Assembly (NCBI GenBank): GCA_012518395.1
Contig: JAAYSJ010000005.1
Coordinates: 1 to 40,441 of the forward strand
Length of the DNA: 40,441 nt
DNA from: Clostridiales bacterium
GTDB lineage: Bacteria > Bacillota > Clostridia > Caldicoprobacterales > UBA3941
Reading direction: 5' to 3'
The notes under the pieces: generated by a model
The model's database searches: none
What the model saw: only the letters and a program-made list of their open reading frames with translations
Told to the model about the DNA's origin: nothing
Shown: piece by piece, positions 11,232 to 29,470 of the stretch
How the letters are laid out: each line of letters starts with the position of its first letter
Position numbering within the stretch: position 1 is the stretch's first letter
Program-made: the position numbers and the translations under genes

Positions 11232-11519
11232 TTTTCGACAAAAAATTGTATAAAACCTATCCTTTTGGACGGGGCGGTAAAAGATATATTGTCGTATTAT
11301 AAAAATGTGGCAATATTTTTTTGTCCCCAAAAAACGCGGTGACAATACCTTGAAAGAATACATATTGACGCTATTATTAACAAGTATTTTTACTAAATTA
11401 TCTGGCGAAATAGTTTATTTCGGCAAACCGGCATATCGTTACAGAAGGGCGGCTTTTTACATTGGTTGGCTAAAGCTGTTGTATGCTCGCATGGGCGATG
11501 TGGAAATGGGGGTTTTAAA

Positions 11520-14500
11520 ATGTCTTTTAAAATATTTGCGGTGGGAAAAAATAATCTTTTCAAAAGATCTTTTTCAATAATTCTAATACTGTGCCTCAAT
11601 ATCGGCCTTATAGTTATGCCGCCGGCGGCGCCGAAGGTATATGCTGCCGCTGGAAATATGCCTGTGGCAACCGATGATCCGGCTACCGAAATCCCTATGC
11701 ATTTTGAATCGAAATCACGTGTTTCCGAGATAGAAGATAACATAGCGGCGACTAAGTTCTTGAACGTCAGTAATATACCAATGGACTCTTACCTCAATAG
11801 GATTACTGTGGATATCTGGTTATCATCCTATGACCCAAGGAGCCCTCTTGCACTCTGGATTCAATCGCCTATACTGTCCTCATACCTCGATGGCTATAAA
11901 TATCCAAAAGGAAAAGTATATACGCTTAAAAAAAACGGAACAGGTGTGGGTAGCGGGGGTCTGGGTATGGGCAGCGAATACAACCAAAGGATCATCTTTG
12001 ACGATAATGCCGAGCGTAGCATCAATACAGAGAATCCGAGTGATTCGTATATAGGCAGCTACAGAAGCCACGAATCTCTGGCAGATCTTGAAGGGAACAG
12101 AATCGGTGGGTCATGGGATTTATATGCTAAATATATGGTGACAGGCAAACGGGCCTCCTTGGTGGACTTCGGTTTAACTGCGTGGCTTCGTCTGGATCGT
12201 GATATCAGGTATGAAACCTATGGCTCAAGGCCCTTGACAGTAAATAAAGGGGACGGTGTTTTAATAAACGACTGGGACCCCCAGGGACGTGCGCTAACCG
12301 CAGAATTAGTATCCCAGCCGCCTGGCGGTACTGTAACCCTTAACCCCGACGGCTCCTTTACATATACCGCAAAGAGAGAAACCAAGGGAATTGATACCTT
12401 TTATTACAGGGCTTATAACGGCAGTCATTATTCCGATCCTGCCAAGGTTCTTATCAATGTAAAGAACAGAAAGCCCACGGCCAAGGATCATACCTTTACC
12501 GTCTATAAAACATACACCTTTGAGCGCCCCCCAAGATTTATGCTTGAGGCGCCGGGCATTTTGGTCGGCTCCCAGGATCCCGATGGCGATGTACTTAAAT
12601 CATATTTTAATTATGATCCGGTTATTTCGGAAAAATGGCGCATTGGAATATTCGCTGACGGAGGTTGTGACATTCATCCACAGGGCATCTGGACTGATAC
12701 TGATATTCGGGATACTAAGGAGGTAACATTCCAATATGTCGTGCACGACGGTAAAGAATATTCTGACCCGGCCAATGTAAGAATCCTGATCAAGAACCCG
12801 CCGACTATCAGCATAAAGGCTCAGCCGGAGGATAAAGTTATAGGCCTTGGTAGTAGCGTATCTCTGACCATGGGCGACATTTTCAGCATCGACCCAGCCG
12901 ACGAAAGGTTGACATTTACCAGTGATCTTGGCAGTATCGCTGTAAACGAAAGTGATTGGAAAAATACCCTTTGGAACTATACGCCTGACGGGGTTGGGGT
13001 GAAACCAGTCATTTTAACTGCCCGTGCGGCCAATGGCAGTACAGAATCCGTAAGCTTTAATGTAATGGTGCAGGGTAATATAGAAAGCGTCCCCAATGTT
13101 GAGGTTACAGTACCCTTGGGTACAAGCCTAAGCGAAGCTATAGCCTCCCTAGGTTCTGAGGCGCCGGTTATCCTGGAGGGGGGGATTGAAGCCTTAGTCC
13201 CCATAAATTGGAGCCAGAGTTCCAACCCGGCATATAACTCTTCCATAGCAGGGAATTATACTTTCACAAGCAGTTTCGGTGATCTACCTGCCTGGATAAA
13301 AAACAGCAATAATATTGGGGCGCCTTCGGGAATAGTAAAAGTCGCCCCAAAGACCATATTGGAAATAACCGTCCCCATAACCCCTGCTAAAACTGGTACA
13401 CCCTATGAATTGATCGTCACCGCAAAGGATGGCAAGGGCCAAATAAAGACCGACTATACCGGCACAGTACATTTTTTTGGTACTGAGGGCACACAAGGCT
13501 TGCCGGGTAGCTATACCTTCACGGCTGCCGATAAGGGAAAGCATACCTTTAACGTCACCTTTGAAACCGGAGGCCAACGTACCATAAAAGTTTCGGAAGA
13601 TGACGGATTAAAAGGGCATTATACCTTTGACGAGGGGAGCGGCACTGTGATATCCGATTCGTCGGGCAACGGCAATGCCGGAACAATAACAAGCCCTGAC
13701 GGCTGGAGTACCAATAAGCCGGTGCTGCAATCTGGGAACGGTTCCAGCCTTGATTTAAATAGTGCTGCCTATAAAATCCCCAGCTCGACAAACGCCTTGG
13801 ATAATATCACCCTATCAGCATGGATTCATCCAAATGGCGATATCAAGGATACCTTCCTTTATAATGGGAACAGCAGTTCATCGGGGTACGGCTTAATGGT
13901 GAAAAACGATCATTTAACTCTTCTTTGCGGCGGTGTAGCTGTAGCGGAAACCTCTGCCCATTTGATCCAAAACAAATGGCAGCATGTGGCTGCAGTAAGA
14001 TCCAGTGGGGTTTGGACCCTGTATTTAGATGGAACTGCCTATAGGGTGGCGGGAAATCCCACCCCGAATTCTATAACAAACGGTCAATTTCTTTATGGGA
14101 ATAATAATGGCTGCTTTATAGACGATGTGCGTATATACGCTCGTCCATTATTGGAAAGGGAAATCGGGCTCCTTGCCCTGGGGCACCCCTTAACGGTATC
14201 AGCCTCCCTTTCGGCTTCACCCTTATCCGGGAAAGGCACTAAAGAAGATCCCTATATCATTACTACTGCTGACGAATTAGACAGCATCCGAAATCAATCG
14301 GGGGCTAATTATAAATTGGGTGCGGATATCGACCTTTCTTCCTATGGTTTGGATTATGACGGGGGAAAAGGCTGGCTGCCCATAAACGGCGGGGACTACT
14401 GGTTTACCGGCAGCTTAGACGGGGTGGGGCATACTATCAGCGGACTTAAGATAAATCGACCCGATACGGAGTTCGTTGGACTTTTTGGACGTATCGGCTC

Positions 14501-17500
14501 CAATGGGACAGTCAAGAATATAAAGCTTAAAGATGTTGATGTAGTGGGTGGAGTAAATGCCGGCGGCCTGGCAGGCCAAATAGTCGGGATGCAACCTATC
14601 ACCGGGGCAAGGGCTGATATTCAAATGATATCTGTCACAGGGAAAATTAAAGGAACACAAAATACAGGGGGTCTTGCAGGCTCTGCTTTCAGAGCGGATA
14701 TATCCCAGGTTTTTTGTGATGTTGAAGTGGAGCAGGCGCCGAATTATAGCGCAGGCGGCATAGTGGGGTTCTTGGGCGACAGATCTGTTATTTCTAATTC
14801 CTATGCTGTGGGAAGCGTGACAAATACTGGCGGAAGAACGCTGGGCGGCCTGGCGGGTCACATTGATGAACAACAGTCTTCAATTAAAAATTCCTATGCC
14901 GCAGTTTCGGTACAGGGAAGAGAGAGCGGGGGTTTAGCGGGTATTAACCAGGGTACTGTAACATCTTCCTATTATGATAGCGGCATCGCGGGGGTGACAG
15001 CCGGTGCGGGAACCCCTCTAAGCACCGCCCAGATGATGAAACAATCAACATTTGTAGACTGGGATTTTACAAATATCTGGCGCATCGTCGAAGACGGTAC
15101 ATATCCAATCCTTAAGTATTTGCCCGTGGAAACAGCAGAAATTGATGGCATGGTCAAAGCTGATATGAAGCATTTAAAAATCGGTTATACTGACGGTGAT
15201 AGTCAAAGCAGCGTAACCTCCAATCTGACGCTGCCCACAAGCGGTGAATACGGCACAGCTATCAAATGGGCTTCTTCCGATTCTTCTGCAATTACAGCAA
15301 AGGGCATTGTCAATCGATTGGTAGGGAAAGATCAAACCGTGATCATGACAGCGGAGGGAAGTAAGGATGGGGGAATCACACTCACTAAAACCTTTGATCT
15401 CACAGTTTTAGGCATCCCCATTGTGCCCGCTATTGACGGACCCATGGAAATGATCCTGGAGCGGGGGTACAGTGCCTGCTCTACCGAGGCCTATACTGTC
15501 ACGGGATTTCCCCTGCCGACGGTGTCAATAGTTTCGGGGAATGAAAGAGTCACTTGGAACGATACGACAAAAAAACTGTATATCGGGGAAGGGCTTGCAC
15601 CGGGGGATTACGAGATTATATTAAAGGCTGAAAATGGTACTTCACCAGATGCAATGTTTACCTTTAAGCTGACAATAGCCTCAGGCTTTGCGGGGGGTAA
15701 TGGGGCCCTAGATGATCCATATCATATCCAAACGCCGGGGCAGCTTAATTTGGTACGCGATTATTTGGATAAGTATTTTGTCCTGGACAACGATATTGGC
15801 CTGACTGAGGCTTGTGAGCCAGGCGGTGATTATTATAACAATGGCGACGGCTGGCTGCCCATAGGCGATGGGAAAAACAAATTTACCGGCAACTTAGACG
15901 GAGCGGGGCATACCATCAGTGGGCTTAAAATAAACCGGCCTAATACAGAGTTTACTGGTCTTTTCGGATGTATCGGCTCCTATGGGACGGTTAGGGATAT
16001 AAAGCTTAAAGATATTGATATAAGGGGCGGGACAAATACCGGCGGCCTGACAGGTCAAGTAGCCGGAATGCAGCCCACCCCAGAAGCAAGGGCTGAAATT
16101 GAAATGATATCGATTACAGGGAAAATTAAAGGTGGCCAAAATACAGGAGGCCTTTTGGGTTCTGCCTTCAGCGCTGATATATCCCAGGTTTTCTGCGATG
16201 TCGAAGTGGAGCAGGACATAAATCCGAATGCAGGGGGTGTAGCAGGGTATCTAGGCAGCGGCTCTGATATTTCTAATTCCTATGCAACAGGAAAGATAAC
16301 CAAGCGCAGTGAGGGTGAATGGGGGGGTCTGACAGGTCAAATTGAAGGCGGGGCTTCCGTAACAAATTCCTATGCGGCGGTAAAGCTTAATGGGAACGGT
16401 GGAGGGGGCCTAACTGGTGCCAATAAAGGTGCTGTAACATCTTCCTATTATGACAAAGATGTTGCGGGGGTAACAGCGGGAGCAGGAACAGCCCTATCTG
16501 CTGCTGGGATGAAACAACGAGCGACATTTAAAAATTGGGATTTCGATAATATTTGGTACATAGTTGACGGGGTTATCTATCCGATTTTACGGTTTATGGT
16601 TCCGGGAATGGAAGAAGTAGATAGTGCCATCAAAGTCGATTTAGACGATTTAGAGATTGGCTATAGCGGGGACGATAAGGCGGACAGCGTGACAGAGGAT
16701 TTAACACTCCCGAATAGCGGGGAAAAAGGAACCACCATCACCTGGCAATCATCAGACCCCGAAGTGATAAGCGATTATGGAAAGGTCACTCGAGTGGATG
16801 GCATGCACAACACCGTCACTTTAACTGCCACACTGAATAAAGCGGGTGGGAACCCACGTACAAAGTCCTTTACCCTTACAGTCATGGGTCACCCCATTCC
16901 GCCTTCCATTGTCGGACCTACAGATATGACCCTGCCCCAGGGCTACGATGCCTGTTCCACAGGCGCCTATACCATTACGAGTTTATATGATGCCACGGTA
17001 ACCAAAGTTTTGGGCGATGAGAACTTCACATGGAATGACGAAACAAAGAAACTGGATATTGCGGAAGGGTTGGCCGAAGGGACTTATCCCGTTGAGCTAA
17101 AGGTCAGCAACGGAACAAAGCCAGATGCGACACTGACTTTTACCCTGACTGTTATTTCTGAGTTTGTGGAGGGATATGGTACCCGAAGGGAACCCTACCA
17201 TATCCAAACGCCTGGGCAGCTTAATAATATAAGAAACCATCTTAATAAGTATTTTATCTTGGATAAGGATATTGATCTCACGGAAGTGTGTTTACCGGAT
17301 GGAGATTACTATAACGGCGGCGCCGGCTGGCAGCCCATAGGGGATTCGGTAGGCAAATTTACCGGCAGCCTGGACGGAGCGGGGCATACTATCAGCGGAC
17401 TTAAGATAAACCGGCCTAATACAGAGTTTACTGGCCTCTTCGGATGTATCGGCTCCAATGCGGAGGTCAGGGATATAAAGCTTACAGATGTTGATATAGC

Positions 17501-20500
17501 GGGCGGGACAAATACTGGCGGCTTGACAGGTCAGATAGCCGGAATGCAGCCTATCCCAGGGGCAAAGGCTGATATTCAAACGATATCTGTCATAGGAAAA
17601 ATTAAAGGTGGCCAAAATACAGGGGGTCTGGCAGGTTCTGCCTTTAGCGCTGATATATCCCAAGTTTTCTGCGATGTCGGGGTGGAGCAGAACGAAAAAC
17701 CGAATGCAGGGGGCATAGTGGGGTATCTGGCAAGTGACTCTAATATTTTTAATTCCTATGCCATAGGAAAGATAACCAAGAGGAGTGGAACAGAATGGGG
17801 CGGCCTGACGGGTCAAATTCGGGCAGGGGCTTCTATAACAAATTCCTATGCGTCAGTAAAGCTAAGTGGGAACGGAGGAGGAGGCCTGACCGGAACTAAT
17901 TACGGTACCGTGACATCTTCCTACTATGATAAGGATGTTGCAGGAAGAAATGATACAGAAAAGGGAACACCCAAAACCACCCAGGAGATGAAACAAGAGG
18001 CGACATTTGAAGGTTGGGATTTTGAAAATACCTGGCGGATTATAGACGGCGCCATTTACCCGGCCTTTCTATGGCAGCCTTACACCTACAGCGAGATTAA
18101 CGGAGTTATTAATTATTTTGCTGGTTGGGATTATATCGGATTGGACAATTATTCACCTGAAAACATAACAGGGGATTTTAATCTTCCTGAATCTGTTGCA
18201 GATGGATTAGAAATCACTTGGGAAACTGACAGGCCTGATCTTTTAGACCCTAATACCGGAACTGTAACAAGACCGAATATAGATACAGACGTCAAACTGA
18301 CAGCCTACCTGCATTTTGGCGATGGAGAGCCGTTAATTAAAGAATACAATGTTGTCATAAAGTCTGCTGCACCGGTTTATACGCTAAGATTGAACGGTAA
18401 TGGGTCAGGGGAGGACGAAGTCATACAAAGTCTTGGGCCTGATAATGAGTTCATTTTGACGGATGATCAGTTTACCCTTCTGGGCAAAGAGATTATTGGG
18501 TGGAACACTATGCCGGACGGTTCCGGGGTAAGCTATCCGGTGGATGAAACGATTTCCATGCCTCCGTATGATTTGACTTTATATGCTATATGGAGGATAT
18601 ACATGGACGGCGACGGCAGCAAAGATAACCCTTATAAGATAGGTTCCCCTTTGCAATTAGCAGCAGTTAGGGACAGAATGATTGAGAACGGCGGTGATGT
18701 TTACTTTGCCCAGACGGAGGATATTGACCTTGGCGAAGATGGAAACTGGACACCCATAGGGAACAGCGACAGCCCGTTTATGGGAACCTACGATGGTAAT
18801 GGGAAAATTATTTCCAATCTAAAAATCAGTAGTGTCCAATCTGCGGATGCCGGGCTTTTCGGTTTCATAGGGCCCTCTGGGAAATTAGAGAACATCAGAT
18901 TGGACGATGTAGATATCGACTTAAACAAACCGAATATACATGTGGGAGGTCTTGCCGGCACCAATCAAGGGACCATTAAAAGTTGCAGCAGTGATGGAAA
19001 TATATCTGTTAATGTTAATGATCGAATGGAAGCAGATGTCGGGGGCTTAACGGGAATTAATGAAACCATGGGAATCATTACCGGCTGCACCGCCGGCGGA
19101 ATAGTGAAGAGCAATGTTGACGGAAGTTTTATTGGAGGCATCGCGGGTACATCCGGCGGAACTATCAGCGACACTAATAATACGGCCAATATAATCGGGG
19201 GCTTATATAAAGGCGGTTTAGCAGGGCGTACAACAGCAGATCTAAAGATAGAGGACAGCTGCAATACGGGTGATATAAATACCCTTACTAGCAATGCCTC
19301 TGGGGGTTTGGTTGGTTATACCTATGATAATACTATAACTACGATCAACAACAGTTATAATTTTGGTGATGTAAGTGGGACTTATAGTGGCGGCCTGATC
19401 GGTTACACAGGTAACAGTCAAGTGTCGATAACCGACAGCTATAATTCCGGAAACATAAGTGGTACTTATAGCGGCGGCCTAGCGGGCTATACTGATACAG
19501 GAACTCTTAATATCACAGGCAGTTATAACTCCGCCGCCATCAATGGCATTAAAGGTTCTAGCGGGGGTTGGGCCGGCGGTTTGGTTGCTTACATCAAGCA
19601 AGGCTCTGCTGCTATTGATTCAAGCTGGAATACTGGGGAAATAACGGGGAATTTTATAGGCGGCCTGGTGGGATATCTATACGAGTCACCGGCAAATGTT
19701 ACCATAACTAACTGTTATAACTTAGGGGAAATCAGAGCCGGCTCTATTGGGGGCGGCCTTACGGGTCACTGTTACCAGGGTTTTATCTATATAAGTAAAA
19801 GCTATAATTCTGGTGAGGTTATAAGCTCGAACTATGCCGGTGGATTGGCTGGCTATATGTACGATGGAGAGATATCAAATAGCTTTAATAGAGGAAAAGT
19901 ATCTGCAGTAAATTTTGTGGGCGGCTTGACTAGCCAAATTGAAAAGGGACAGATAACAAATGCCTATAATGCAGGAGTTATAGAGGGTGGTAACACTGCG
20001 AAAGGCGGATTGGTGGGTAGGAAGGATAATGGCAGTATAAGCGATAGCTATTATGATTCCGAAACTAGCGGCCAAGACGATACGGGAAAAGGAAATCCCC
20101 TGAGCACCGTCCAGATGAAACAGAAGACAAGCTTTGAAAATTGGGATTTTGAGACTATATGGGCTATAAAAGAGGGTATTTCCTATCCATATTTTCGAAC
20201 TGAGATCCACGAGATAACTATTTCCTGGGGCAGTATGGAATTTACCTATACCGATGGTGCATGGAATCCAAATACCCATGAATACGATGATGGTGGTTGG
20301 ACAGCGGCTGAAAATGCCAATAGGATATCCATAATTAATAACACCGATAATCCAGTGACTATATCCTATTCTTATACAAGGGAAACCGGTTTTGAGAATA
20401 TAGCGGGCAATTTTACAGACGGAACTAACACTATACGACAATATGAACTGCCAGCCTGGGATGATTCTCCCCAGTGGTTTGATGTATTTTTAAATCTTTC

Positions 20501-20576
20501 CGGTAAACTGCCGGAAATAGCCGACAAAAAAATCGGATCTATAACCGTTACTATTGACGGGCAGGAAGGGAGCTAA
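11520..20576 (+). CDS. Giant (~3018 aa) secreted surface protein with P-domain-like, cadherin/Ig-like, LamG, GLUG and InlB-type repeat modules
   Basis: ORF 11466-20576; likely start 11520 (MSFKIFAVGK...) with signal peptide. LamG 'GLKGHYTFDEGSGTVISDSSGNGNAG'; many GLUG-like motifs 'GGLAGQ/GGLTGQ/GGLVGY'; InlB-like 'EIIGWNTMPDGSGVSYPVDETISMPPYDLTLYAIW'; C-terminal WGSMEFTY domain. Confidence 0.93.
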   Translation: MSFKIFAVGKNNLFKRSFSIILILCLNIGLIVMPPAAPKVYAAAGNMPVATDDPATEIPMHFESKSRVSEIEDNIAATKFLNVSNIPMDSYLNRITVDIWLSSYDPRSPLALWIQSPILSSYLDGYKYPKGKVYTLKKNGTGVGSGGLGMGSEYNQRIIFDDNAERSINTENPSDSYIGSYRSHESLADLEGNRIGGSWDLYAKYMVTGKRASLVDFGLTAWLRLDRDIRYETYGSRPLTVNKGDGVLINDWDPQGRALTAELVSQPPGGTVTLNPDGSFTYTAKRETKGIDTFYYRAYNGSHYSDPAKVLINVKNRKPTAKDHTFTVYKTYTFERPPRFMLEAPGILVGSQDPDGDVLKSYFNYDPVISEKWRIGIFADGGCDIHPQGIWTDTDIRDTKEVTFQYVVHDGKEYSDPANVRILIKNPPTISIKAQPEDKVIGLGSSVSLTMGDIFSIDPADERLTFTSDLGSIAVNESDWKNTLWNYTPDGVGVKPVILTARAANGSTESVSFNVMVQGNIESVPNVEVTVPLGTSLSEAIASLGSEAPVILEGGIEALVPINWSQSSNPAYNSSIAGNYTFTSSFGDLPAWIKNSNNIGAPSGIVKVAPKTILEITVPITPAKTGTPYELIVTAKDGKGQIKTDYTGTVHFFGTEGTQGLPGSYTFTAADKGKHTFNVTFETGGQRTIKVSEDDGLKGHYTFDEGSGTVISDSSGNGNAGTITSPDGWSTNKPVLQSGNGSSLDLNSAAYKIPSSTNALDNITLSAWIHPNGDIKDTFLYNGNSSSSGYGLMVKNDHLTLLCGGVAVAETSAHLIQNKWQHVAAVRSSGVWTLYLDGTAYRVAGNPTPNSITNGQFLYGNNNGCFIDDVRIYARPLLEREIGLLALGHPLTVSASLSASPLSGKGTKEDPYIITTADELDSIRNQSGANYKLGADIDLSSYGLDYDGGKGWLPINGGDYWFTGSLDGVGHTISGLKINRPDTEFVGLFGRIGSNGTVKNIKLKDVDVVGGVNAGGLAGQIVGMQPITGARADIQMISVTGKIKGTQNTGGLAGSAFRADISQVFCDVEVEQAPNYSAGGIVGFLGDRSVISNSYAVGSVTNTGGRTLGGLAGHIDEQQSSIKNSYAAVSVQGRESGGLAGINQGTVTSSYYDSGIAGVTAGAGTPLSTAQMMKQSTFVDWDFTNIWRIVEDGTYPILKYLPVETAEIDGMVKADMKHLKIGYTDGDSQSSVTSNLTLPTSGEYGTAIKWASSDSSAITAKGIVNRLVGKDQTVIMTAEGSKDGGITLTKTFDLTVLGIPIVPAIDGPMEMILERGYSACSTEAYTVTGFPLPTVSIVSGNERVTWNDTTKKLYIGEGLAPGDYEIILKAENGTSPDAMFTFKLTIASGFAGGNGALDDPYHIQTPGQLNLVRDYLDKYFVLDNDIGLTEACEPGGDYYNNGDGWLPIGDGKNKFTGNLDGAGHTISGLKINRPNTEFTGLFGCIGSYGTVRDIKLKDIDIRGGTNTGGLTGQVAGMQPTPEARAEIEMISITGKIKGGQNTGGLLGSAFSADISQVFCDVEVEQDINPNAGGVAGYLGSGSDISNSYATGKITKRSEGEWGGLTGQIEGGASVTNSYAAVKLNGNGGGGLTGANKGAVTSSYYDKDVAGVTAGAGTALSAAGMKQRATFKNWDFDNIWYIVDGVIYPILRFMVPGMEEVDSAIKVDLDDLEIGYSGDDKADSVTEDLTLPNSGEKGTTITWQSSDPEVISDYGKVTRVDGMHNTVTLTATLNKAGGNPRTKSFTLTVMGHPIPPSIVGPTDMTLPQGYDACSTGAYTITSLYDATVTKVLGDENFTWNDETKKLDIAEGLAEGTYPVELKVSNGTKPDATLTFTLTVISEFVEGYGTRREPYHIQTPGQLNNIRNHLNKYFILDKDIDLTEVCLPDGDYYNGGAGWQPIGDSVGKFTGSLDGAGHTISGLKINRPNTEFTGLFGCIGSNAEVRDIKLTDVDIAGGTNTGGLTGQIAGMQPIPGAKADIQTISVIGKIKGGQNTGGLAGSAFSADISQVFCDVGVEQNEKPNAGGIVGYLASDSNIFNSYAIGKITKRSGTEWGGLTGQIRAGASITNSYASVKLSGNGGGGLTGTNYGTVTSSYYDKDVAGRNDTEKGTPKTTQEMKQEATFEGWDFENTWRIIDGAIYPAFLWQPYTYSEINGVINYFAGWDYIGLDNYSPENITGDFNLPESVADGLEITWETDRPDLLDPNTGTVTRPNIDTDVKLTAYLHFGDGEPLIKEYNVVIKSAAPVYTLRLNGNGSGEDEVIQSLGPDNEFILTDDQFTLLGKEIIGWNTMPDGSGVSYPVDETISMPPYDLTLYAIWRIYMDGDGSKDNPYKIGSPLQLAAVRDRMIENGGDVYFAQTEDIDLGEDGNWTPIGNSDSPFMGTYDGNGKIISNLKISSVQSADAGLFGFIGPSGKLENIRLDDVDIDLNKPNIHVGGLAGTNQGTIKSCSSDGNISVNVNDRMEADVGGLTGINETMGIITGCTAGGIVKSNVDGSFIGGIAGTSGGTISDTNNTANIIGGLYKGGLAGRTTADLKIEDSCNTGDINTLTSNASGGLVGYTYDNTITTINNSYNFGDVSGTYSGGLIGYTGNSQVSITDSYNSGNISGTYSGGLAGYTDTGTLNITGSYNSAAINGIKGSSGGWAGGLVAYIKQGSAAIDSSWNTGEITGNFIGGLVGYLYESPANVTITNCYNLGEIRAGSIGGGLTGHCYQGFIYISKSYNSGEVISSNYAGGLAGYMYDGEISNSFNRGKVSAVNFVGGLTSQIEKGQITNAYNAGVIEGGNTAKGGLVGRKDNGSISDSYYDSETSGQDDTGKGNPLSTVQMKQKTSFENWDFETIWAIKEGISYPYFRTEIHEITISWGSMEFTYTDGAWNPNTHEYDDGGWTAAENANRISIINNTDNPVTISYSYTRETGFENIAGNFTDGTNTIRQYELPAWDDSPQWFDVFLNLSGKLPEIADKKIGSITVTIDGQEGS
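14220..18080 (+). repeat. Three internal repeat modules within the giant surface protein (GLUG block with intervening Ig-like segments)
   Basis: Recurring 'GWLPIGD..KFTGNLDGAGHTISGLKINRPNTEFTGLFGCIGS...', 'SYYDKDVAGVTAGAGT', 'TSVTEDLTLPNSGE.GT.ITW'; high nucleotide similarity at about 14410, 15890 and 17370. Confidence 0.85.
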
Positions 20577-20578
20577 CC

Positions 20579-21202
20579 ATGAAAAACAAGAAGTTTTTTT
20601 TGCTCATAATAATACTTTGTGTCGCTACAGCCATATCTTTGACGGCTACTTTAATTCTGCTCAACAATAAAACAAAACCCGTCGATGTCTCTGATAAGTA
20701 TCCCCCGGTAATGACAGACCCTGAGGCTGAGCCCGTAGAAGAAGAAACAACCCAGCCCCCACTGGAGAATCCTGAGGGCGGGGGTGCGGTATCGCTTACT
20801 TATTCCGGACAGGCTGTTGCCCCAAAGGGCGATGGTGTAGCGGATATTATGTTTGAAAACCCGGCCAAATCTAATCAAGACGTCATAATTCAACTTCAGA
20901 TTACAGATAAGGAGCTGATAGAAAAAATCGGTAAGACAGGCAGGACTATGGCAGACAAAGCTAAAATAGAGGATGCCGAGGATTATGACAGCAAAGATTA
21001 CCGTATGGTCGTAGGAGAATCGGGGCTTATTTCTCCCGGGTACAAATTGGAGTCCATTCAACTCAATGCCCTACCGGATGGGACTGTTTTGCCTAAAGGC
21101 ATCTATAATGCAATATATTATATTTCGCCTTATGACAAAGAGACCAACGAAAGAGCCATGGTTAATGTGCAGATCCCAATTATGCTTGTCATAGAGAAAT
21201 AA
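20579..21202 (+). CDS. Membrane-anchored extracellular protein, probable partner of the giant surface protein
   Basis: Starts 3 nt after the giant gene stop; N-terminal TM, then a P/E-rich linker and a beta-rich domain. Confidence 0.75.
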   Translation: MKNKKFFLLIIILCVATAISLTATLILLNNKTKPVDVSDKYPPVMTDPEAEPVEEETTQPPLENPEGGGAVSLTYSGQAVAPKGDGVADIMFENPAKSNQDVIIQLQITDKELIEKIGKTGRTMADKAKIEDAEDYDSKDYRMVVGESGLISPGYKLESIQLNALPDGTVLPKGIYNAIYYISPYDKETNERAMVNVQIPIMLVIEK

Positions 21203-21322
21203 AGATTTATAATTATTACTCGTACCATCAGCCTACTGTGGAGTGCCCCGATAAAGATGGGCATACATGGCAGGGTTTGGATACGAATAATATAAAGAAT
21301 ATTTATGGAAGGAAGAAGAATC

Positions 21323-21856
21323 ATGAAAAAAACAATACATGTTCTCCTAGTTCTCGTTTTGGTGCTATGTATGAGCGCGACTGCTTTTGCCGAGACTATT
21401 GGGGGAGAAGGGGGAAGTACTACCGTAGATGTTAAGGGGACATATAAACAAGGAGGAGCCGAAACCATTGTCTATAGCGTAGATATTATCTGGGGCAGCA
21501 TGGAATTTACATACACCAGCGCAGGCGCTGGTACTTGGGATCCCAGTACCCACAAATCCGATGGGCAGACGGATGCGGCATGGTCTTGTATAAACGATGC
21601 CAATAAGATTACAGTCACAAATCATTCCAATACGGCTGTTAAGGCAACATTCGCATATGCCTCTGAACCGGCATACGAGACTGTAAACGGTTCATTCGGT
21701 AATTCCCCGCTAAACCTGGCGACTGCCATAGGAACCCAACTGGGGAGCGCACCATCCGGTAATGCAACCCTGACTCTCTCAGGTTCTCTGGCACAGAATG
21801 TATCAGCAAAGACTAAGGTAGGCACAGTCACTATCACTATTAACAAGGGCAATTAA
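21323..21856 (+). CDS. Small secreted protein homologous to the C-terminal domain of the giant surface protein
   Basis: ORF 21305-21856, likely start 21323; signal peptide MKKTIHVLLVLVLVLCMSATAFA; 'IIWGSMEFTYTSAGAGTWDPSTHKSDG..AANKITVTNHSN' parallels giant C-term 'ISWGSMEFTYTDGAWNPNTHEYDDGG..ANRISIINNTDN'. Confidence 0.85.
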   Translation: MKKTIHVLLVLVLVLCMSATAFAETIGGEGGSTTVDVKGTYKQGGAETIVYSVDIIWGSMEFTYTSAGAGTWDPSTHKSDGQTDAAWSCINDANKITVTNHSNTAVKATFAYASEPAYETVNGSFGNSPLNLATAIGTQLGSAPSGNATLTLSGSLAQNVSAKTKVGTVTITINKGN

Positions 21857-21972
21857 GTGCGGGTAAAAAATGGCCGTGGCTACAGATAGCTGACATAGGC
21901 AGTATATATCAAAATTGGTTTTACTTTAGACACTATTCATGGCGGTTCTATTCGTATATTTTTGTGGCGTGG

Positions 21973-22159
21973 TTGTAAATAAAATGCGAAAACGTAGGGA
22001 ACGACCCTTGTGTCGTTCCCTACCACATTTAATGTCGCGCCTGTTTGCATAGGCGACCAGAGGTGCGCCCCCACTGCAATTACGGTATCAATAGGAAATG
22101 TGACATCAATGCCATTCCCCTAATGGGTAGGGGCGACCTGTGGTCGCCCGGCCAAAGAC
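21973..22159. repeat. MITE/REP-like palindromic intergenic element, copy A (187 bp)
   Basis: 'ttgtaaataaaatgcgaaaacgtagggaacgaccc...gtcgttccctac...ggggcgacctgtggtcgccc..aaagac'; near-identical flanks to 25048-25281. Confidence 0.85.
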
Positions 22160-22540
22160 TCTTGCCGAGGGCTTAAGGTCTTTTTTATTACCCAATATCA
22201 TATCGTAATAACATTCGGATAGAACCGCTATCTTCCAGGGTATAATATTACCAATATACCGTGGAGGAGCCTAATAATATGACAAATTCAGATAAAGTAC
22301 CCAATAGATTAATAAACGAGAAATCCCCTTATATGCTCCAACACGCCTACAATCCAGTTGACTGGTATCCCTGGTCAGACGAAGCCTTCCAAAAAGCTAA
22401 AGCCGAAGACAAACCAATCTTTCTATCCATCGGTTATTCCGCCTGTCACTGGTGCCATGTTCGTGAAATAGACTAGTGGCGACTTAAAGAATTCAGGGAT
22501 TATCCTTTATATCTCTTACATACACATTATATGCTCAAAA
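22160..22540 (+). repeat. 5'-yyaL-like repeat, copy 3, with junction tail
   Basis: 'ccgagggcttaaggtcttttttattacccaatatcatatcgtaataacattcggatagaaccgc...gggtataatattaccaatataccgtggaggagcctaataatatgacaaattcagataaagtaccc'; tail 'gtgaaatagactag...ctcttacatacacattatatgc'. Confidence 0.92.
22279..22476 (+). pseudogene. Truncated N-terminal fragment (65 aa) of DUF255 thioredoxin-domain protein
   Basis: [65 protein letters not shown]. Confidence 0.87.
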
Positions 22541-22560
22541 CACAGAAGATACATATGCCT

Positions 22561-22660
22561 AAAATATTGGATTGATACATCTGTACAGGATTACAAGATC
22601 ATGTTAAATATATATAAAAGCAGAGATTATCATTGGAATTTATTATTAGGACATTTTAAA
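22561..22660 (+). pseudogene. Remnant of a HEPN-domain toxin gene
   Basis: 'aaaatattggattgatacatctgtacaggattacaagatcatgttaaatatatataaaagcagagattatcattgg' matches the start of the intact HEPN gene at 24322-24420 with few substitutions. Confidence 0.85.
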
Positions 22661-22957
22661 AGCTATGCGTTTTGGAGTTGGGGATTCTTGCTTCATCGGG
22701 GTCGCAACATGTCTGTATCCGTAGCTTGTACAGCATCTGGCAATATTGGGCAATTTAAAATGCCATGAAAGATAAAGGAATTGGGTTTATAAGCTTAGGG
22801 AGGACAATATTAACAATTTGTTCATAGTTTATTAAAATTTATCCTTTATACTATAAATCAAGTATAAGGGAGGTGAGAATCCACTTAGGGATTATTATCG
22901 ATGAGGTAAACACGTGTTTACGTATAATTCAATAATTAATTTTTAGGAGGGTTTTCT

Positions 22958-23263
22958 ATGAAAATCAGAAAAATTATTGCATCTATGTTAACCTTTGTAC
23001 TACTCCTTATGGTGGGCTTGACAGCCTGCTCTACCCCTAAAGATAGTGATAATGGGGATGTACCTGGAGAAGCTAATAGTATAGAAAGTGAGGATTCAGG
23101 TGATATAACAGATACAGAGGCAGATGAAGTAGAAGATGGGGTCGATGTATCTGACCATGAAACAGATTCGGGAGCAGAAAATGATGAATTAGGGGACGAC
23201 AGTGATACCGAAGCCCTTGATTCCGACTTAATTGATAATAACACAGAAGAACATGGGGATTAA
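22958..23263 (+). CDS. Small, highly acidic (D/E-rich) lipoprotein
   Basis: RBS 'aggaggg'; lipobox VGLTACS; mature part almost entirely D/E/S/T/G. Confidence 0.7.
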   Translation: MKIRKIIASMLTFVLLLMVGLTACSTPKDSDNGDVPGEANSIESEDSGDITDTEADEVEDGVDVSDHETDSGAENDELGDDSDTEALDSDLIDNNTEEHGD

Positions 23264-23359
23264 TAAATAACACAGGTGTGAATTGCGGCTTGATTGCCGC
23301 AATTTTCATTAAACAACAGGTTTTAATAATCATTTGTATCAAAGACTAAAAAGTGTTTA

Positions 23360-23392
23360 TTATATTCCTTATATGTACATTATGCGCAAAAA
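23360..23392 (+). repeat. Isolated junction-tail remnant without its 5'-yyaL part
   Basis: 'tattatattccttatatgtacattatgcgcaaaa' resembles tails 'atatctcttatatacattatacgcc' (copy 2) and 'cttacatacacattatatgctcaaaa' (copy 3). Confidence 0.5.
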
Positions 23393-23498
23393 ATTCATAT
23401 TACTTACTTGCTGGCCATGGTATAATTATGACACGCTGAGATAGCTGAAGGGGTATTTACGGGATGATCCTGTAAAAACATATAGGGGAGGGACCTTA

Positions 23499-23680
23499 TG
23501 TTTAAAACAATTGAACAGTTAAAAGAATAGCTAGAGCAATATAGGCCACTGACCAGCAAAGTATTGGATGTTGCAAATAATATAAAGGGGTTTAACAATG
23601 AAGATATACTATAATTCCAGTTTATGGGATAACGGAAAGGGATTACCCGGTGCTTCCCCAAAGGGTGAACTGGGAATTTA
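23499..23680 (+). pseudogene. Possible remnant of a Fic-family gene N-terminus (interrupted by stop/frameshift)
   Basis: MFKTIEQLKE*LEQYRPLTSKVLDVANN... reads like the 'ELxxxLxxYRPL' lead-in of Fic proteins; in-frame TAG then loss of frame. Confidence 0.35.
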
Positions 23681-23748
23681 AGTACGCGCGAAACAAATGC
23701 TACATACCCATGCTATATCGATTTTCCATAGAAATGAAATAGAGATTT

Positions 23749-23812
23749 GTGCCTGTCGCAGCACCCTCCATCGGTATCATCGGTGGAGTGGATGGATCCA
23801 CATCTGTTTTTT
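23749..23812 (+). pseudogene. Fragment resembling OadB/GcdB (Na+-translocating decarboxylase beta subunit)
   Basis: 'VAAPSIGIIGGVDGSTSVFLTTS' resembles the OadB core 'EAASIGIIGAADGPTSIYVANL' in the intact OadB of this window (33516-34622). Confidence 0.55.
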
Positions 23813-23922
23813 TGACAACAAGCAAAGATGCAAAAACATCAAAAGGTTCAAAGGGGTTGCCGTTTTATAACTGTCTGTCTATACCGAGGTTCCAAAAGGG
23901 GGATATGTCATATTTTATCCTT

Positions 23923-24107
23923 CCGAGGGCTTAAGGTCTTTTTTATTACCCAATATCATATCGTAATAACATTCGGTAGAACCGCCATCTTCCAGGGTAT
24001 AATATTACCAATATACCGTGGAGGAGCCTAATAATATGACAAATTCAGATAAAGTACCCAATAGATTAATAAACGAGAAATCCCCTTATCTGCTCCAACA
24101 CGCCTAA
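23923..24107 (+). repeat. 5'-yyaL-like repeat, copy 4 (shortest; truncated after 23 codons)
   Basis: Nearly identical to copy 3 over about 180 bp, then diverges at 'cacgccta'; encodes [23 protein letters not shown] (24036-24107). Confidence 0.92.
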
Positions 24108-24301
24108 GATATTGGAGGTTGACGGAGAACTAAATAAAGGGGAATTTCTGTTACTATACTAAAAATAGGAATTTTGTTTATAGTTTATTGAATTTATATG
24201 CTATAATTAATTTAGGAAGCATATCTTATTAAGACAAAATTCCAGAAATGGATTGGAAACTCAAGAAAAACTAAATTCCATAGTTAAAGGTGGGAGACAC
24301 A

Positions 24302-24697
24302 ATGGATAAAAAAGAAATAATAAAATATTGGATTGATACATCTGAACAGGATTATAAGACGATGCTAAATCTATATAAAAGCGGAGATTACCATTGGTGC
24401 TTATTTTTAGGACATTTAGTTATTGAGAAATTACTCAAGGCCATTTTTGTAATGAATGTAGATAGACATCTGCCAAGAATTCATGATTTACTTAGATTAG
24501 CAGAGCTATCAAAAATTGAAACATCTGAGAAGCAGAAAGATGTCCTAGATTTAATTACTACTTTTAATATAAGTGCAAGGTATCCTGATTATAAACAGAG
24601 TTTTTATGAAAGATGTAATAAGGAATTTACATCGGCTAATATTGAAAAGATTAAGGGGTTGAGAACATGGTTGCTTTCACTAATAGGGAAAGAATAA
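24302..24697 (+). CDS. HEPN-domain protein (toxin of HEPN/MNT module)
   Basis: MDKKEIIKYWIDTSEQDYKTMLNLYKSGDYHWCLFLGHLVIEKLLKAIFV...LPRIHDLLRLAELS: classic HEPN pattern; overlaps the MNT gene. Confidence 0.9.
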   Translation: MDKKEIIKYWIDTSEQDYKTMLNLYKSGDYHWCLFLGHLVIEKLLKAIFVMNVDRHLPRIHDLLRLAELSKIETSEKQKDVLDLITTFNISARYPDYKQSFYERCNKEFTSANIEKIKGLRTWLLSLIGKE

Positions 24698-24987
24698 AGG
24701 AGATTGCGGCAAAATATGCTGAGTTATTGAAAAGGGAATTAGACATAGAAAGTGTATATTTAGCTGGCTCTTATGCTAAAGGGACAAATACGGAAGATAG
24801 CGATATAGATATTATAGTTGTTAGTGATAGCTTTAGTGGTGATTTAATTAAAGATATGTTAAAGTTGATGAAAATTAGAAGGGAACTTGATTATAGAATA
24901 GAGCCCCATCCATTTACAAAATCTGAGTTCAATCCTTCCAATCCCTTTGTGGAGGAAATCCTCAATACCTCGATTAGAATCATGTAA
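24667..24987 (+). CDS. MNT-type nucleotidyltransferase (antitoxin of HEPN/MNT module)
   Basis: 'VYLAGSYAKGTNTEDSDIDIIVVSDSF': GSY-(x)n-DxD nucleotidyltransferase motif. Confidence 0.9.
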   Translation: MVAFTNRERIKEIAAKYAELLKRELDIESVYLAGSYAKGTNTEDSDIDIIVVSDSFSGDLIKDMLKLMKIRRELDYRIEPHPFTKSEFNPSNPFVEEILNTSIRIM

Positions 24988-25047
24988 TCGACGTGACAGG
25001 GTCATCGTGCATCAGATTTAATTAGCTAATCGCGAAGTGTGTCCTAC

Positions 25048-25281
25048 TTGTAAATAAAATGCGAAAACGTAGGGAACGACCCCTGTGTCGTTCCGGGTTT
25101 CTATATCGTCTATATTTGCGGAACGACACGGGGATCGTTCCCTACCGCATTTAATGTCGCGCCTGTTTGCATAGGCGACCAGAGGTGCGCCCCTACTGCA
25201 ATTAGGGTATCAATAGAAAATGTGACATCAATGCCATTCCCCTAATGGGTAGGGGCGACCTGTGGTCGCCCGGCTAAAGAC
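25048..25281. repeat. MITE/REP-like palindromic intergenic element, copy B (234 bp)
   Basis: Same ends as copy A (ttgtaaataaaatgcgaaaacgtagggaacgaccc ... gggtaggggcgacctgtggtcgcccgg..aaagac) with an extra ~47 bp inside the first palindrome. Confidence 0.85.
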
Positions 25282-25342
25282 ACATTCGTTTATATAATGC
25301 GACATGAGAATTAATAACAATGGAAAAGAGATTTTTATTGAA

Positions 25343-25376
25343 GGCCTAGCACCTGTCAGGTACTAAGGTCTTTTTT
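25343..25376 (+). terminator. Intrinsic terminator upstream of the copy 5 promoter
   Basis: GGCCTAGCACCTgtcAGGTACTAAGGTC hairpin followed by TTTTTT. Confidence 0.7.
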
Positions 25377-25468
25377 GTTATCCAATATTGTACCATAGCA
25401 ATATTCGGATAGGAGTACCACCACCTAGGGTATAATACTACCAATATACCATGGAGGGAATTAACAAC

Positions 25469-25681
25469 ATGACTAATTCAAATAGAGTATCCAATAGATT
25501 GATAAACGAAAAGAGCCCTTACCTTTTGCAACACGCCTATAACCCCGTTGACTGGTATCCTTGGAGTGATGAAGCCTTCGATAAAGCCAAAGCTGAAGAT
25601 AAGCCTGTCTTCCTATCCACCGGATATAGCACCTGTCATTGGTGCCATGTTCATGAAATAAACTACATGGAAATGGGCTAA
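25469..25681 (+). pseudogene. Truncated N-terminal fragment (70 aa) of DUF255 thioredoxin-domain protein
   Basis: [70 protein letters not shown]. Confidence 0.88.
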
Positions 25682-25899
25682 TATGGGGGACTTTAGGACT
25701 TTACAACATCTTACTGATGCACATTATACGCCTAAAATGATATGGATATATTATTGTTACAAAGCTAGAAAAATATCGCGGGATTAGTTAATACTTTCCT
25801 GTAGGGCTATTGGCATGTTAGAGGTTTTTAACGCATTGAATCTTTGTATAAAATTGGGTATAATTGAATTAAAAGAGTATAGAGAATGGGGTGTGAAAC

Positions 25900-26073
25900 T
25901 TGAGTTTAGCTGAAAGGTTTTTGAAAGAATTTAACGGTCTTCCTGATGACAAAAAAGAACAAGTCATTGATTTTATAGAATTTTTAAAGGCAAAGGATAG
26001 AAATGAGCTTGGGGCATTAATGGATACAGTTATCAAAGAGAACCAGCAAGCCCTTAAGGAATTAAGTCAATGA
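25900..26073 (+). CDS. Short (57 aa) DUF2281-like/antitoxin-like protein preceding Doc (below the ORF-track cutoff)
   Basis: TTG-start frame: (M)SLAERFLKEFNGLPDDKKEQVIDFIEFLKAKDRNELGALMDTVIKENQQALKELSQ*; stop overlaps Doc start as ATGA. Confidence 0.65.
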   Translation: MSLAERFLKEFNGLPDDKKEQVIDFIEFLKAKDRNELGALMDTVIKENQQALKELSQ

Positions 26074-26447
26074 AGATGATTGGTACAGAAGAAATTCTGA
26101 TTTTTCATAAAAAAATTATCAAACAAACTGGGGGTCTATACGGGGTTAGAGACATTGGGCTGATTGAAAGTGCGTTAAATCGGGCCTCTGTCACTTTTGA
26201 TGGTATCGAACTATATAAAAGTATTGAAGACAAGATATCTGTTATAACCTATGGATTGATAAAAAATCATGGGTTTGTTGATGGGAACAAGAGGATTGGT
26301 GTATCAACAATGCTACTGTTATTACGAATAAATGATATTCAAATTCACTATACGCAGAATGAATTAGTACAACTAGGATTAGGTATAGCTGATGGATCAC
26401 TTGATGAAAAAGAAATAAACAAATGGATAAAAAACCATATATTATAA
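26070..26447 (+). CDS. Doc/Fic (death-on-curing) family toxin
   Basis: 'GLYGVRDIGLIESALNRA' and Fic core 'HGFVDGNKRIGVSTMLLLLRIN'. Confidence 0.92.
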   Translation: MKMIGTEEILIFHKKIIKQTGGLYGVRDIGLIESALNRASVTFDGIELYKSIEDKISVITYGLIKNHGFVDGNKRIGVSTMLLLLRINDIQIHYTQNELVQLGLGIADGSLDEKEINKWIKNHIL

Positions 26448-26604
26448 AGGGGCTCCTGATGTAGGCACAGTTTTTTTAGGAATGTTCTGGAATGATAGTA
26501 AAGTGGGATCTACCTTAGGATATATAACGTATTAGTATAATTATGTGCAACAGTAAAATTGCATTGAACAAGGAAAACTAGTGAAAGATTGGGAGGCATA
26601 ATGA

Positions 26605-27003
26605 ATGGAATGGGAAATGGGATTAACTCTTAGTCCAAAGCAAAAAGAATTTAAGTGGAAATATTCTAAATCTGATGGTCTAATAATAACCCGTACCTTT
26701 AAGAGTGGTACTAATAAAACGGAATTTTCCAATGGAGATATAGATAAAATTATAAATTTCATAAAAGGAAAGGGAATAGTGCCTCTTGCTAACAATGTAG
26801 AGAAACTATCAAATGCAACGGAGAAGGAAGGCATCGGTAGCTTTATATATCAAAATATTTCGAGTGATATGGCTAATGCCCAAGCAGCCAGTCAATTAGT
26901 ATCCATACTCTATAATGTAGGAGCACTTGGATATAATGGTGCAGCCCGTGGAATGGAATTTTGGGTATTAGAAGAAAACTGGAAGGAAAAATTAATAAAA
27001 TAG
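26605..27003 (+). CDS. Hypothetical protein (cassette cargo)
   Basis: 132-aa ORF, plausible composition, no family recognised. Confidence 0.55.
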   Translation: MEWEMGLTLSPKQKEFKWKYSKSDGLIITRTFKSGTNKTEFSNGDIDKIINFIKGKGIVPLANNVEKLSNATEKEGIGSFIYQNISSDMANAQAASQLVSILYNVGALGYNGAARGMEFWVLEENWKEKLIK

Positions 27004-27139
27004 CATAGGAGAAGAGCATCAATAAAAATTATATTAGTGTAATTTTACATTATCCAAGAAAGTGAATAAAGCTTTGTATAATCTTTTTTGGATTAGGAAA
27101 TAATGTCGAGGGAATAAATGACTAACTCGTTCTTTTTAT

Positions 27140-27502
27140 AACACGATATAAGAACCAATAACAATGGGAAAGCAGATTGTTGATTAAGGCCTAACACCTG
27201 TCAAAGTCTAAGGTTTTGTATTACCCAATATCATGTCATAATAACATTCGGATAGAATAGCTTCTCTCCGGGGTATAATATTACCATTATATCATGGAGG
27301 ACCTTATAATATGAATAATTCAAATAGAGTATCAAATAGATTGATAAACGAAAAATCCCCGTACTTACTACAGCATGCCTACAACCCCGTAGACTGGTAC
27401 CCCTGGGCAGACGAAGCCTTTGATAAAGCCAAAGCAGAAGACAAGCCAATCTTCCTATCCATCGGTTATAGCACTTGTCACTGGTGCCATGTCATGGAAC
27501 GA
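27140..27502 (+). repeat. 5'-yyaL-like repeat, copy 6: promoter and 5' end of the intact gene
   Basis: Source/current copy; continues into the full 719-aa ORF after CHWCHV ([12 protein letters not shown]...). Confidence 0.92.
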
Positions 27503-29470
27503 GAATCCTTTGAAGATAACGAAGTGGCAGAAATATTGAACAAGTATTTTGTGTCCATAAAGGTAGATCGGGAGGAAAGACCCGATATAGATCACATTTA
27601 CATGACCGTATGTCAGGCCATGACAGGGAGCGGGGGCTGGCCCCTTACCGTTATAATGACCCCTGATCAAAAGCCCTTCTTTGCTGGCACCTATTTTCCT
27701 AAAAAAGGCAGAAGGGGCATGATGGGGCTTATGGGACTACTTGATAGGGTTAGGAAAGGCTGGCAAGATGATAGGCAAACCATGGTGGATTCTGCCGATT
27801 CCATAGTTGAGAGTATGAAACCGCATTTTGCCATGGGGGAAAAGGACGCTGAACTAACAAAAGAAACAATAGATGAGGCTTATAGGATGCTGGAGGCCTC
27901 ATTTGATAGTAACTATGGCGGATTCGGGCATTCACCTAAATTCCCGACCCCCCATAGTCTATCCTTTCTTCTCCGGTATTGGAAAATTGCCGGTGAGAAA
28001 AGGGCCTTAGAAATGGTCGAGAAAACCCTGGAAGGTATGTACAAGGGCGGCATATTTGACCATATAGGATACGGTTTTTCAAGGTATTCAACGGATCAGA
28101 AATGGCTTGTACCCCATTTTGAAAAGATGCTCTATGATAATGCCCTATTGGCCATAGCATATTTAGAAGCATACCAAGTTACGGCGCAAGAAGGATATGC
28201 AGTAATTGCCGAAAAGATATTTACCTATATACTCCGAGATATGACCCATCCTGAAGGGGGGTTCTATTCTGCCGAGGATGCGGATTCTGAGGGCGTAGAA
28301 GGTAAATTCTATGTTTGGACCCCGGAAGAGATAAAGAGTATCCTGGGGGAAGAGGATGGTAAATTCTTTTGCAACTTTTATGGGATTACCCCTAGAGGCA
28401 ATTTTGAAGGGAAGAGCATAGCCAATAGATTACATGACAAGGTTGCATGGAAAATTGGCAAAGACGGGGATACCAATAGCGATGGTAGGCATACAAGCGT
28501 TGATACTACAGATATATCAGCCGGTTCGGCAACCACAAATTTGGATTTCGCCGATGGAAGAATTGCCGAATTAAGAAAAAGAGTCTTCGATCAACGGAAT
28601 GAAAGGATCCACCCCCATAAAGACGATAAGGTATTGACCGCCTGGAATGGACTGATGATAGCTGCTCTTTCTATAGGTGCCAGAGTATTGGAAAAGCAGG
28701 ATTATCTTGATGCAGCGAAGAAGGCCTTGGATTTTATATTTTCCCATTTGGTTAATGAGGATGGCAGGCTACTAGCCAGATACAGGGATGGAGAAGCGGC
28801 TCATCTTGCCTACCTGGATGATTATGCCTTTTTAACATGGGCTCTGCTTGAAATGTATCATACTACCTTTGAATCCGGATATCTTAGTAAAGCTCTCAAA
28901 CTGAATGAAGAGATGTTGACTTTATTCGATGACGAAGAAAACGGTGGAATGTTTCTGTACGCCAAGGACGGTGAAGAGCTTATAGCTCGGCCTAAGGAAG
29001 TGCATGATGGGGCATTGCCCTCAGGCAATTCGGTAGCAGCCCTTAATATGCTCAGGCTGGCACGACTGACGGGGGACAGTGGGCTTGAAGAAAAGGCATA
29101 CAGCCACCTTAACGCCTTTGCAGGGGAAGTACAAACCAATCCGGCAGCCTATACCCATTTTCTTATGGCAGCAGTTTTCGGTCTATATCCTACAGGCGAA
29201 ATAGTATTGGCAGGTGACAGCAAGGATACCGGAATCCAAAGGATGATAAGCCTTGTCCATAAATCCTTTCTCCCTCAGATTACAGTCCTTCTAAACGATA
29301 CAGATTTACCGGAAGAACCTGCAGAAGATCAACCGCCCATTAGGGATTTAGCACCCTACGTTATGGGACAACAGGCTGTAGGTGGCAAACCCACCGCCTA
29401 TCTATGCGAGAACTATGCCTGTAAGGCACCTATAACTGACTTTGAAGAGTTTAGAAAAGCACTGAATTGA
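27311..29470 (+). CDS. yyaL: DUF255 thioredoxin-domain-containing protein (YyaL/SPATA20-like), full length
   Basis: [25 protein letters not shown]...[41 protein letters not shown]..., C-terminal 6-hairpin-glycosidase-like region. Confidence 0.95.

Follow-up and report, generated by a model that had tools for sequence, protein, structure and literature searches.

Two described systems serve as the nearest references for the gene cluster considered here. In the TasA system of Bacillus, the N-terminus of TapA resembles the TasA donor strand, a resemblance that pointed to TapA as the source of the first strand (PMC9674648), and a chaperone role has been described for TapA as well (PMC10151520). 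By gene set, the closest analogue is the WxL cluster (PMC10599100). We describe a cluster built around a secreted domain that we name S, and on balance consider it probable, from the sequences of its parts, that these form a TasA-like donor-strand fibre of unrelated sequence on which giant adhesins are carried. S-bearing clusters of this kind belong to gut and digester Clostridia, and the finding bears on how these bacteria expose giant adhesins at their surface when those adhesins themselves lack a wall anchor. No description of the system was found in the literature searched, in which subscription journals and preprints were thinly represented.

The window, i.e. the whole stretch of DNA that was analysed (40,441 nucleotides from the draft genome of a Clostridiales bacterium), contains three genes of the cluster, encoding the candidate tip, the membrane protein T1 and a single candidate shaft subunit (Table 1). 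The giant protein consists of a signal peptide, Big_9/cadherin-like, LamG, GLUG and aBig_2 repeats (as assigned with Pfam), and the C-terminal S domain. Judging from the sequence, its gene most likely starts at the ATG at 11520 rather than at the TTG at 11466, and the small gene most likely starts at the ATG at 21323 and not at that at 21305, because the latter sits inside GGAAGGAAGAAG, which resembles a ribosome-binding site.

Table 1. Positions in the window of the operon's genes and of the elements within and between them
Feature	Position	Strand	Basis
Giant secreted protein, candidate tip adhesin	11520..20576	+	ORF; Pfam domains; start codon revised by sequence inspection
S domain of the giant protein, without N-terminal donor-like segment (candidate acceptor only)	about 20196..20558	+	tblastn, profile, motif absence
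T1: N-terminally membrane-anchored, extracellular Ig-like beta domain, candidate assembly chaperone/anchor	20579..21202	+	AlphaFold2, homology, gene order
Sigma-70-like promoter match before the small gene (TTGTCA-16-TATAAT, 11/12)	21186..21213	+	Consensus scan alone, no functional weight
Small secreted S protein, candidate shaft subunit, 177 aa	21323..21856	+	BLASTP, start codon context, AlphaFold2
Signal peptide of the small S protein, MKKTIHVLLVLVLVLCMSATAFA	21323..21391	+	Sequence inspection
Candidate donor-strand segment TTVDVKGTY (motif V-x-[AG]-x-Y)	21419..21445	+	Conservation in small S and P; unfolded in AlphaFold2 model
S domain core of the small protein (WGSMEFTY ... GTVTITI)	21470..21853	+	BLASTP, alignment, AlphaFold2

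Several neighbouring genes deserve mention. Directly 5' of the giant gene (8745-11231) lies a MalT-like LuxR-family ATPase regulator, a candidate regulator of the operon, and at 603-2058 a sigma-factor-like gene overlaps the gene of a secreted protein whose TM helix lies in its C-terminal half. On the 3' side of the operon (21963-27505), a thioredoxin-domain (DUF255) gene has its 5' end repeated three to four times, and HEPN/MNT-like pieces are duplicated too; this duplication may mark where T2 and P, two further members of the cluster that are introduced below, were lost. By eye, no SipW-type peptidase gene was recognised among the window's ORFs around the operon.

According to the original prediction, the C-terminal domain of the giant protein is duplicated as a stand-alone secreted protein, and BLASTP bears this out: the products of 21305-21853 and 20160-20573 share 32% identity and 55% positives over 129 aa (E=1e-21). 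S takes in the last ~125 residues of the giant protein and is found again in the small secreted one; a six-frame search of the whole 2.16-Mb draft genome recovered only these two copies, that of the giant protein with E=3.3e-16 by tblastn and E=1.7e-37 with a 42-row profile. On inspection neither protein has an LPXTG-type end, in agreement with the earlier observation that the giant protein lacks an evident LPXTG anchor.

The S domain also recurs in comparable operons, a recurrence on which the original prediction depended. The S alignment, run against 84,980 species genomes, recovered 32 further loci, a number that is a lower bound because the scan requires an exact short peptide. Nearly all carriers are MAGs labelled Clostridia or families within, and the cultured Evtepia gabavorous carries the domain as well; the distribution of the module is patchy (searches of about 400 genomes each). 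The trio of a large protein ending in S, a 207-aa T1 and a small S also occurs in a genome from a different family of the same taxonomic order. With rebuilt profiles a longer conserved order was recognized: the large protein with C-terminal S, T1, one to three small S, T2, and P. It is complete in 12 loci (L007, L008, L012, L014, L019, L022, L024, L028, L029, L032, L033 and L035), beyond which the near-copy L037 is also complete. Among the 33 loci, window included, 23 have T1 immediately 5' of small S and 20 have T2, which P follows in 17 (a hand count gives P in 18). T1 and T2 are homologous to each other. Searches detected neither T2 and P nor remnants of them in the window or its genome (98% complete, with one sortase), leaving T1 as the only candidate base there. 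Longer variants of small S, with an extra C-terminal domain of ~100-120 aa, occur at L019:6016-6897, L024:2638-3477, L009:796-1707 and L011:6001-6900, and are possibly specialised subunits. Viral or plasmid spread was considered, and no relative appeared in the viral_contigs scan or in tblastn against plasmids.

Neither S nor T (T1 and T2) has a convincing family match in Pfam; S has weak and scattered matches in NCBIfam, and P matches nothing in Pfam except anchor models. Sequence searches of the PDB matched only signal peptides when made with S, and mainly designed Ig proteins when made with T. A number of family assignments were tried and rejected. S shows no homology to WxL domains, as PF13731 is absent from the genome and from 42 S members and hhalign against seven WxL domains gave a probability of about 0; T shows none to WxLIP proteins, having no DUF916/DUF3324 match and an hhalign alignment to five WxLIP proteins that covers the TM helix only. 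Membership of S in the TasA/camelysin family was dismissed for lack of any PF12389 match among S members, and profile comparison found no homology between S and T. Usher, PapD-like chaperone or pilin families had no Pfam match in S, T or the scanned neighbours. Elsewhere in the window genome (G000:C47:9732-10672) there are two PF12389 matches, so that a separate TasA-like system may be present.

Evidence for our hypothesis comes from the distribution of a short segment. Following the signal peptide, small S proteins bear a conserved [I]-[DN]-V-x-[AG]-x-Y (V in 42/47, A or G in 45/47, and Y in 44/47). It precedes the WGSM core by 9-26 residues in 48 of 50 small S proteins versus three of 16 S domains of large proteins (Fisher p=2.6e-9, a value to be read as a guide only, because sequences that are related do not count as independent samples). 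Of the three large-protein cases that have it, two are long multi-domain subunits and one is an InlB-like repeat end. P has the segment at its mature N-terminus and no S domain, and no homology between the P and S bodies was detected by profile comparison. With a 9-residue matrix made from P, small S can be told apart from 87 control ORFs at an AUC of 0.96 (mature N-termini, signal peptides removed), and the reverse matrix, made from small S, separates P with an AUC of 0.99, the sole control scoring >8.2 being a P fragment; both figures are rough, because signal peptides were located with a simple script and many of the control ORFs were mechanical. When a P-only profile was run against the whole window genome, the best match was the N-terminus of small S (E=5.7e-9, signal peptide included) and the next had E=0.07. 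T was also tried as a donor of the same segment and rejected, its motif matches being scattered in position and mostly weak. At the other end, P carries a sortase signal (srtB_target and LPXTG models) or choline-binding repeats; by sequence, the P family is one of differing anchors behind a single conserved N-terminus. The homologues in which choline-binding repeats replace the sortase signal are L029:7196-8419 and L032:7333-8526.

These patterns have to be set against a reading with no fibre, in which S would bind peptidoglycan or a wall polymer as WxL domains do, the small protein and the giant protein's S would form a platform, and T1 would be its membrane-anchored stabilising partner. Its appeal is that the gene set (a domain-only small protein, a large protein with the same C-terminal domain and a membrane-anchored Ig-like partner) mirrors WxL clusters (PMC10599100) and that the window holds exactly those three genes. 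We nevertheless regard it as unlikely, given that the genome has no PF13731 match, that S and T show no profile similarity to WxL and WxLIP, respectively, and that it leaves unexplained both the presence in P of the segment without S and its absence from the large proteins. Of the two functions originally proposed for the domain, "surface attachment or assembly", with T1 as a possible docking partner, assembly fits better than direct attachment: in complete loci it is a separate, wall-anchored P that bears the small-S segment, and the giant proteins mostly lack it. The assembly idea is supported in its broad lines, although the mechanism proposed here is another one and an anchor protein, P, is added.

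Structure prediction adds to this picture. The AlphaFold2 model of mature small S has a pLDDT of 90, with a beta-sandwich core at about 97, while the segment, in the single-chain model, has a pLDDT of 56-65 and no secondary structure. T1 (pLDDT 84) is modelled as a TM helix (residues 4-29) followed by an Ig-like beta domain. The Foldseek list for S against the PDB includes CfaB, Caf1/Caf1M and the Sulfolobus thread filament, none below 1e-3, so the fold match is not specific; that for T includes AggA, SafA/SafB, CooA and PapD-type chaperones. As donor-strand pilins, chaperones and Ig-like folds generally, these predicted-structure matches weakly back the fibre reading. A short segment directly behind a signal peptide could instead be conserved for targeting: in small S and P it might be a recognition tag (a docking site for T or a signal for dedicated processing, for example), with S proteins monomeric on the surface. 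Its position and its disorder in the monomer model are compatible with such a tag, as is the fact that T genes adjoin both small S and P genes. We think this improbable, since the giant proteins cross the same membrane, should need the tag and mostly lack it, and since V-x-[AG]-x-Y alternates in a way that is suited to a beta strand.

Returning to the fibre, we hypothesize that S is an Ig-like beta-sandwich module that polymerises through strand donation. The N-terminal I-D-V-x-[AG]-x-Y segment of small S would complete the S domain of a neighbour, and small S, being donor plus acceptor, would form the shaft. The giant protein, whose S domain is without the segment, could only accept a strand, and would therefore cap the distal tip and display its adhesive ectodomain; P, which has the segment without an S domain, could only donate, and would therefore sit, wall-anchored, at the base of the fibre in complete loci. 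T1 and T2 would keep S subunits at the membrane, or chaperone them there, until strand exchange, and may be membrane-bound chaperones. Segment insertion into S, fibre formation and the roles of T1 and T2 are what we infer; the distribution of donors and acceptors and the unfolded state of the segment in the predicted monomer fit donor-strand logic. In a complete locus the genes run from tip to base, and donors and acceptors balance.

As a counterpoint to the fibre, the window genome has neither T2 nor P, and several loci have T1 and S alone (e.g. L030, the locus of the cultured Evtepia gabavorous), which indicates that tip and P are dispensable or located elsewhere. Such minimal loci would also suit a small protein that acts as a soluble decoy, inhibitor or regulator, copying the giant protein's end domain and competing for T1; this we consider very improbable, because it gives no role to the one to three S copies per locus or to the pattern in P.

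The candidate tips differ widely among loci. In addition to the LamG/GLUG/aBig_2 protein of the window, the large proteins carry BspA-type LRR (L007 and L032), GLUG (L014 and L028) or YDG/MBG domains (L029), and in L010, L012 and L015 the S-bearing gene encodes a ~300-aa protein with a cohesin-like domain. Directly upstream of the latter lies a giant protein with a dockerin-like end (L012:2-4872, L010:2-4868 and L015:1-5361). In L012 the dockerin (E=7.8e-5) and cohesin (E=0.0013) matches are below Pfam's cut-off, and those in L010 and L015 are weaker or absent; no solved structure was matched by a profile built from the cohesin-like adaptor domains. The arrangement suggests, as a lead and not as a result, that the cohesin-like S protein is an adaptor mounting an adhesin on the fibre. 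At L034:4750-6387, a sigma-factor-like gene precedes one for a membrane protein that combines a cohesin domain (PF00963, E=5e-10) with a C-terminal S; this protein may be an anti-sigma-like sensor for fibre subunits that are free.

Taken at its fullest, the proposal is of a clostridial donor-strand fibre system that polymerises independently of sortase, has no sequence relationship to TasA or the chaperone-usher pilins, possesses a full tip, shaft and base with exchangeable giant tip adhesins (fused directly or, in some loci, mounted by a cohesin-dockerin pair) and base anchors, and uses T1 and T2 as equivalents of periplasmic chaperones without a periplasm; we put this forward tentatively, at slightly less than an even chance. 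If the fibre reading is right, it identifies which proteins make up the tip, shaft and base of a new commensal fibre, with a tip-to-base order that is derived from sequence alone and is testable; it suggests donor-strand assembly in Gram-positive bacteria beyond the TasA family; and it would assign functions to protein families not covered by Pfam and NCBIfam.

How the cluster compares with known systems can be stated part by part. With the WxL cluster (small WxL, large WxL and WxLIP/DUF916-DUF3324) it shares, in one operon, a domain-only small protein, a large protein ending in the same domain and a membrane-anchored Ig-like partner; it differs in that T is anchored by its N-terminus and WxLIP by its C-terminus, and in having T2 and P in addition. 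As in sortase-assembled Gram-positive pili, there is a wall-anchored candidate base subunit, P, in many loci but not in the window genome. The small S proteins end at or just past IGTVTVTI, with no C-terminal TM helix or LPXTG signal, and for shaft candidates lacking a C-terminal sorting signal covalent polymerisation by sortase is not expected. The proposed acceptor-only tip, the donor-plus-acceptor shaft and the N-terminal segment of alternating hydrophobic residues recall chaperone-usher pili (Fim, Pap and Caf1), in contrast to which the candidate chaperone T is membrane-bound. Like TasA/TapA (Bacillus; PF12389), the system is Gram-positive and has secreted beta-sandwich subunits with a candidate N-terminal donor strand; unlike it, the cluster has ordinary signal peptides, giant tips fused to the subunit fold, a sortase-type or choline-binding anchor and two extra membrane-bound Ig-like proteins. 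In both, the N-terminus of a base or accessory protein resembles the donor strand of the subunit (TapA there, P in the other loci here), and the TapA-TasA model rests on the same kind of evidence, N-terminal similarity to a donor strand, as the case for P and small S.
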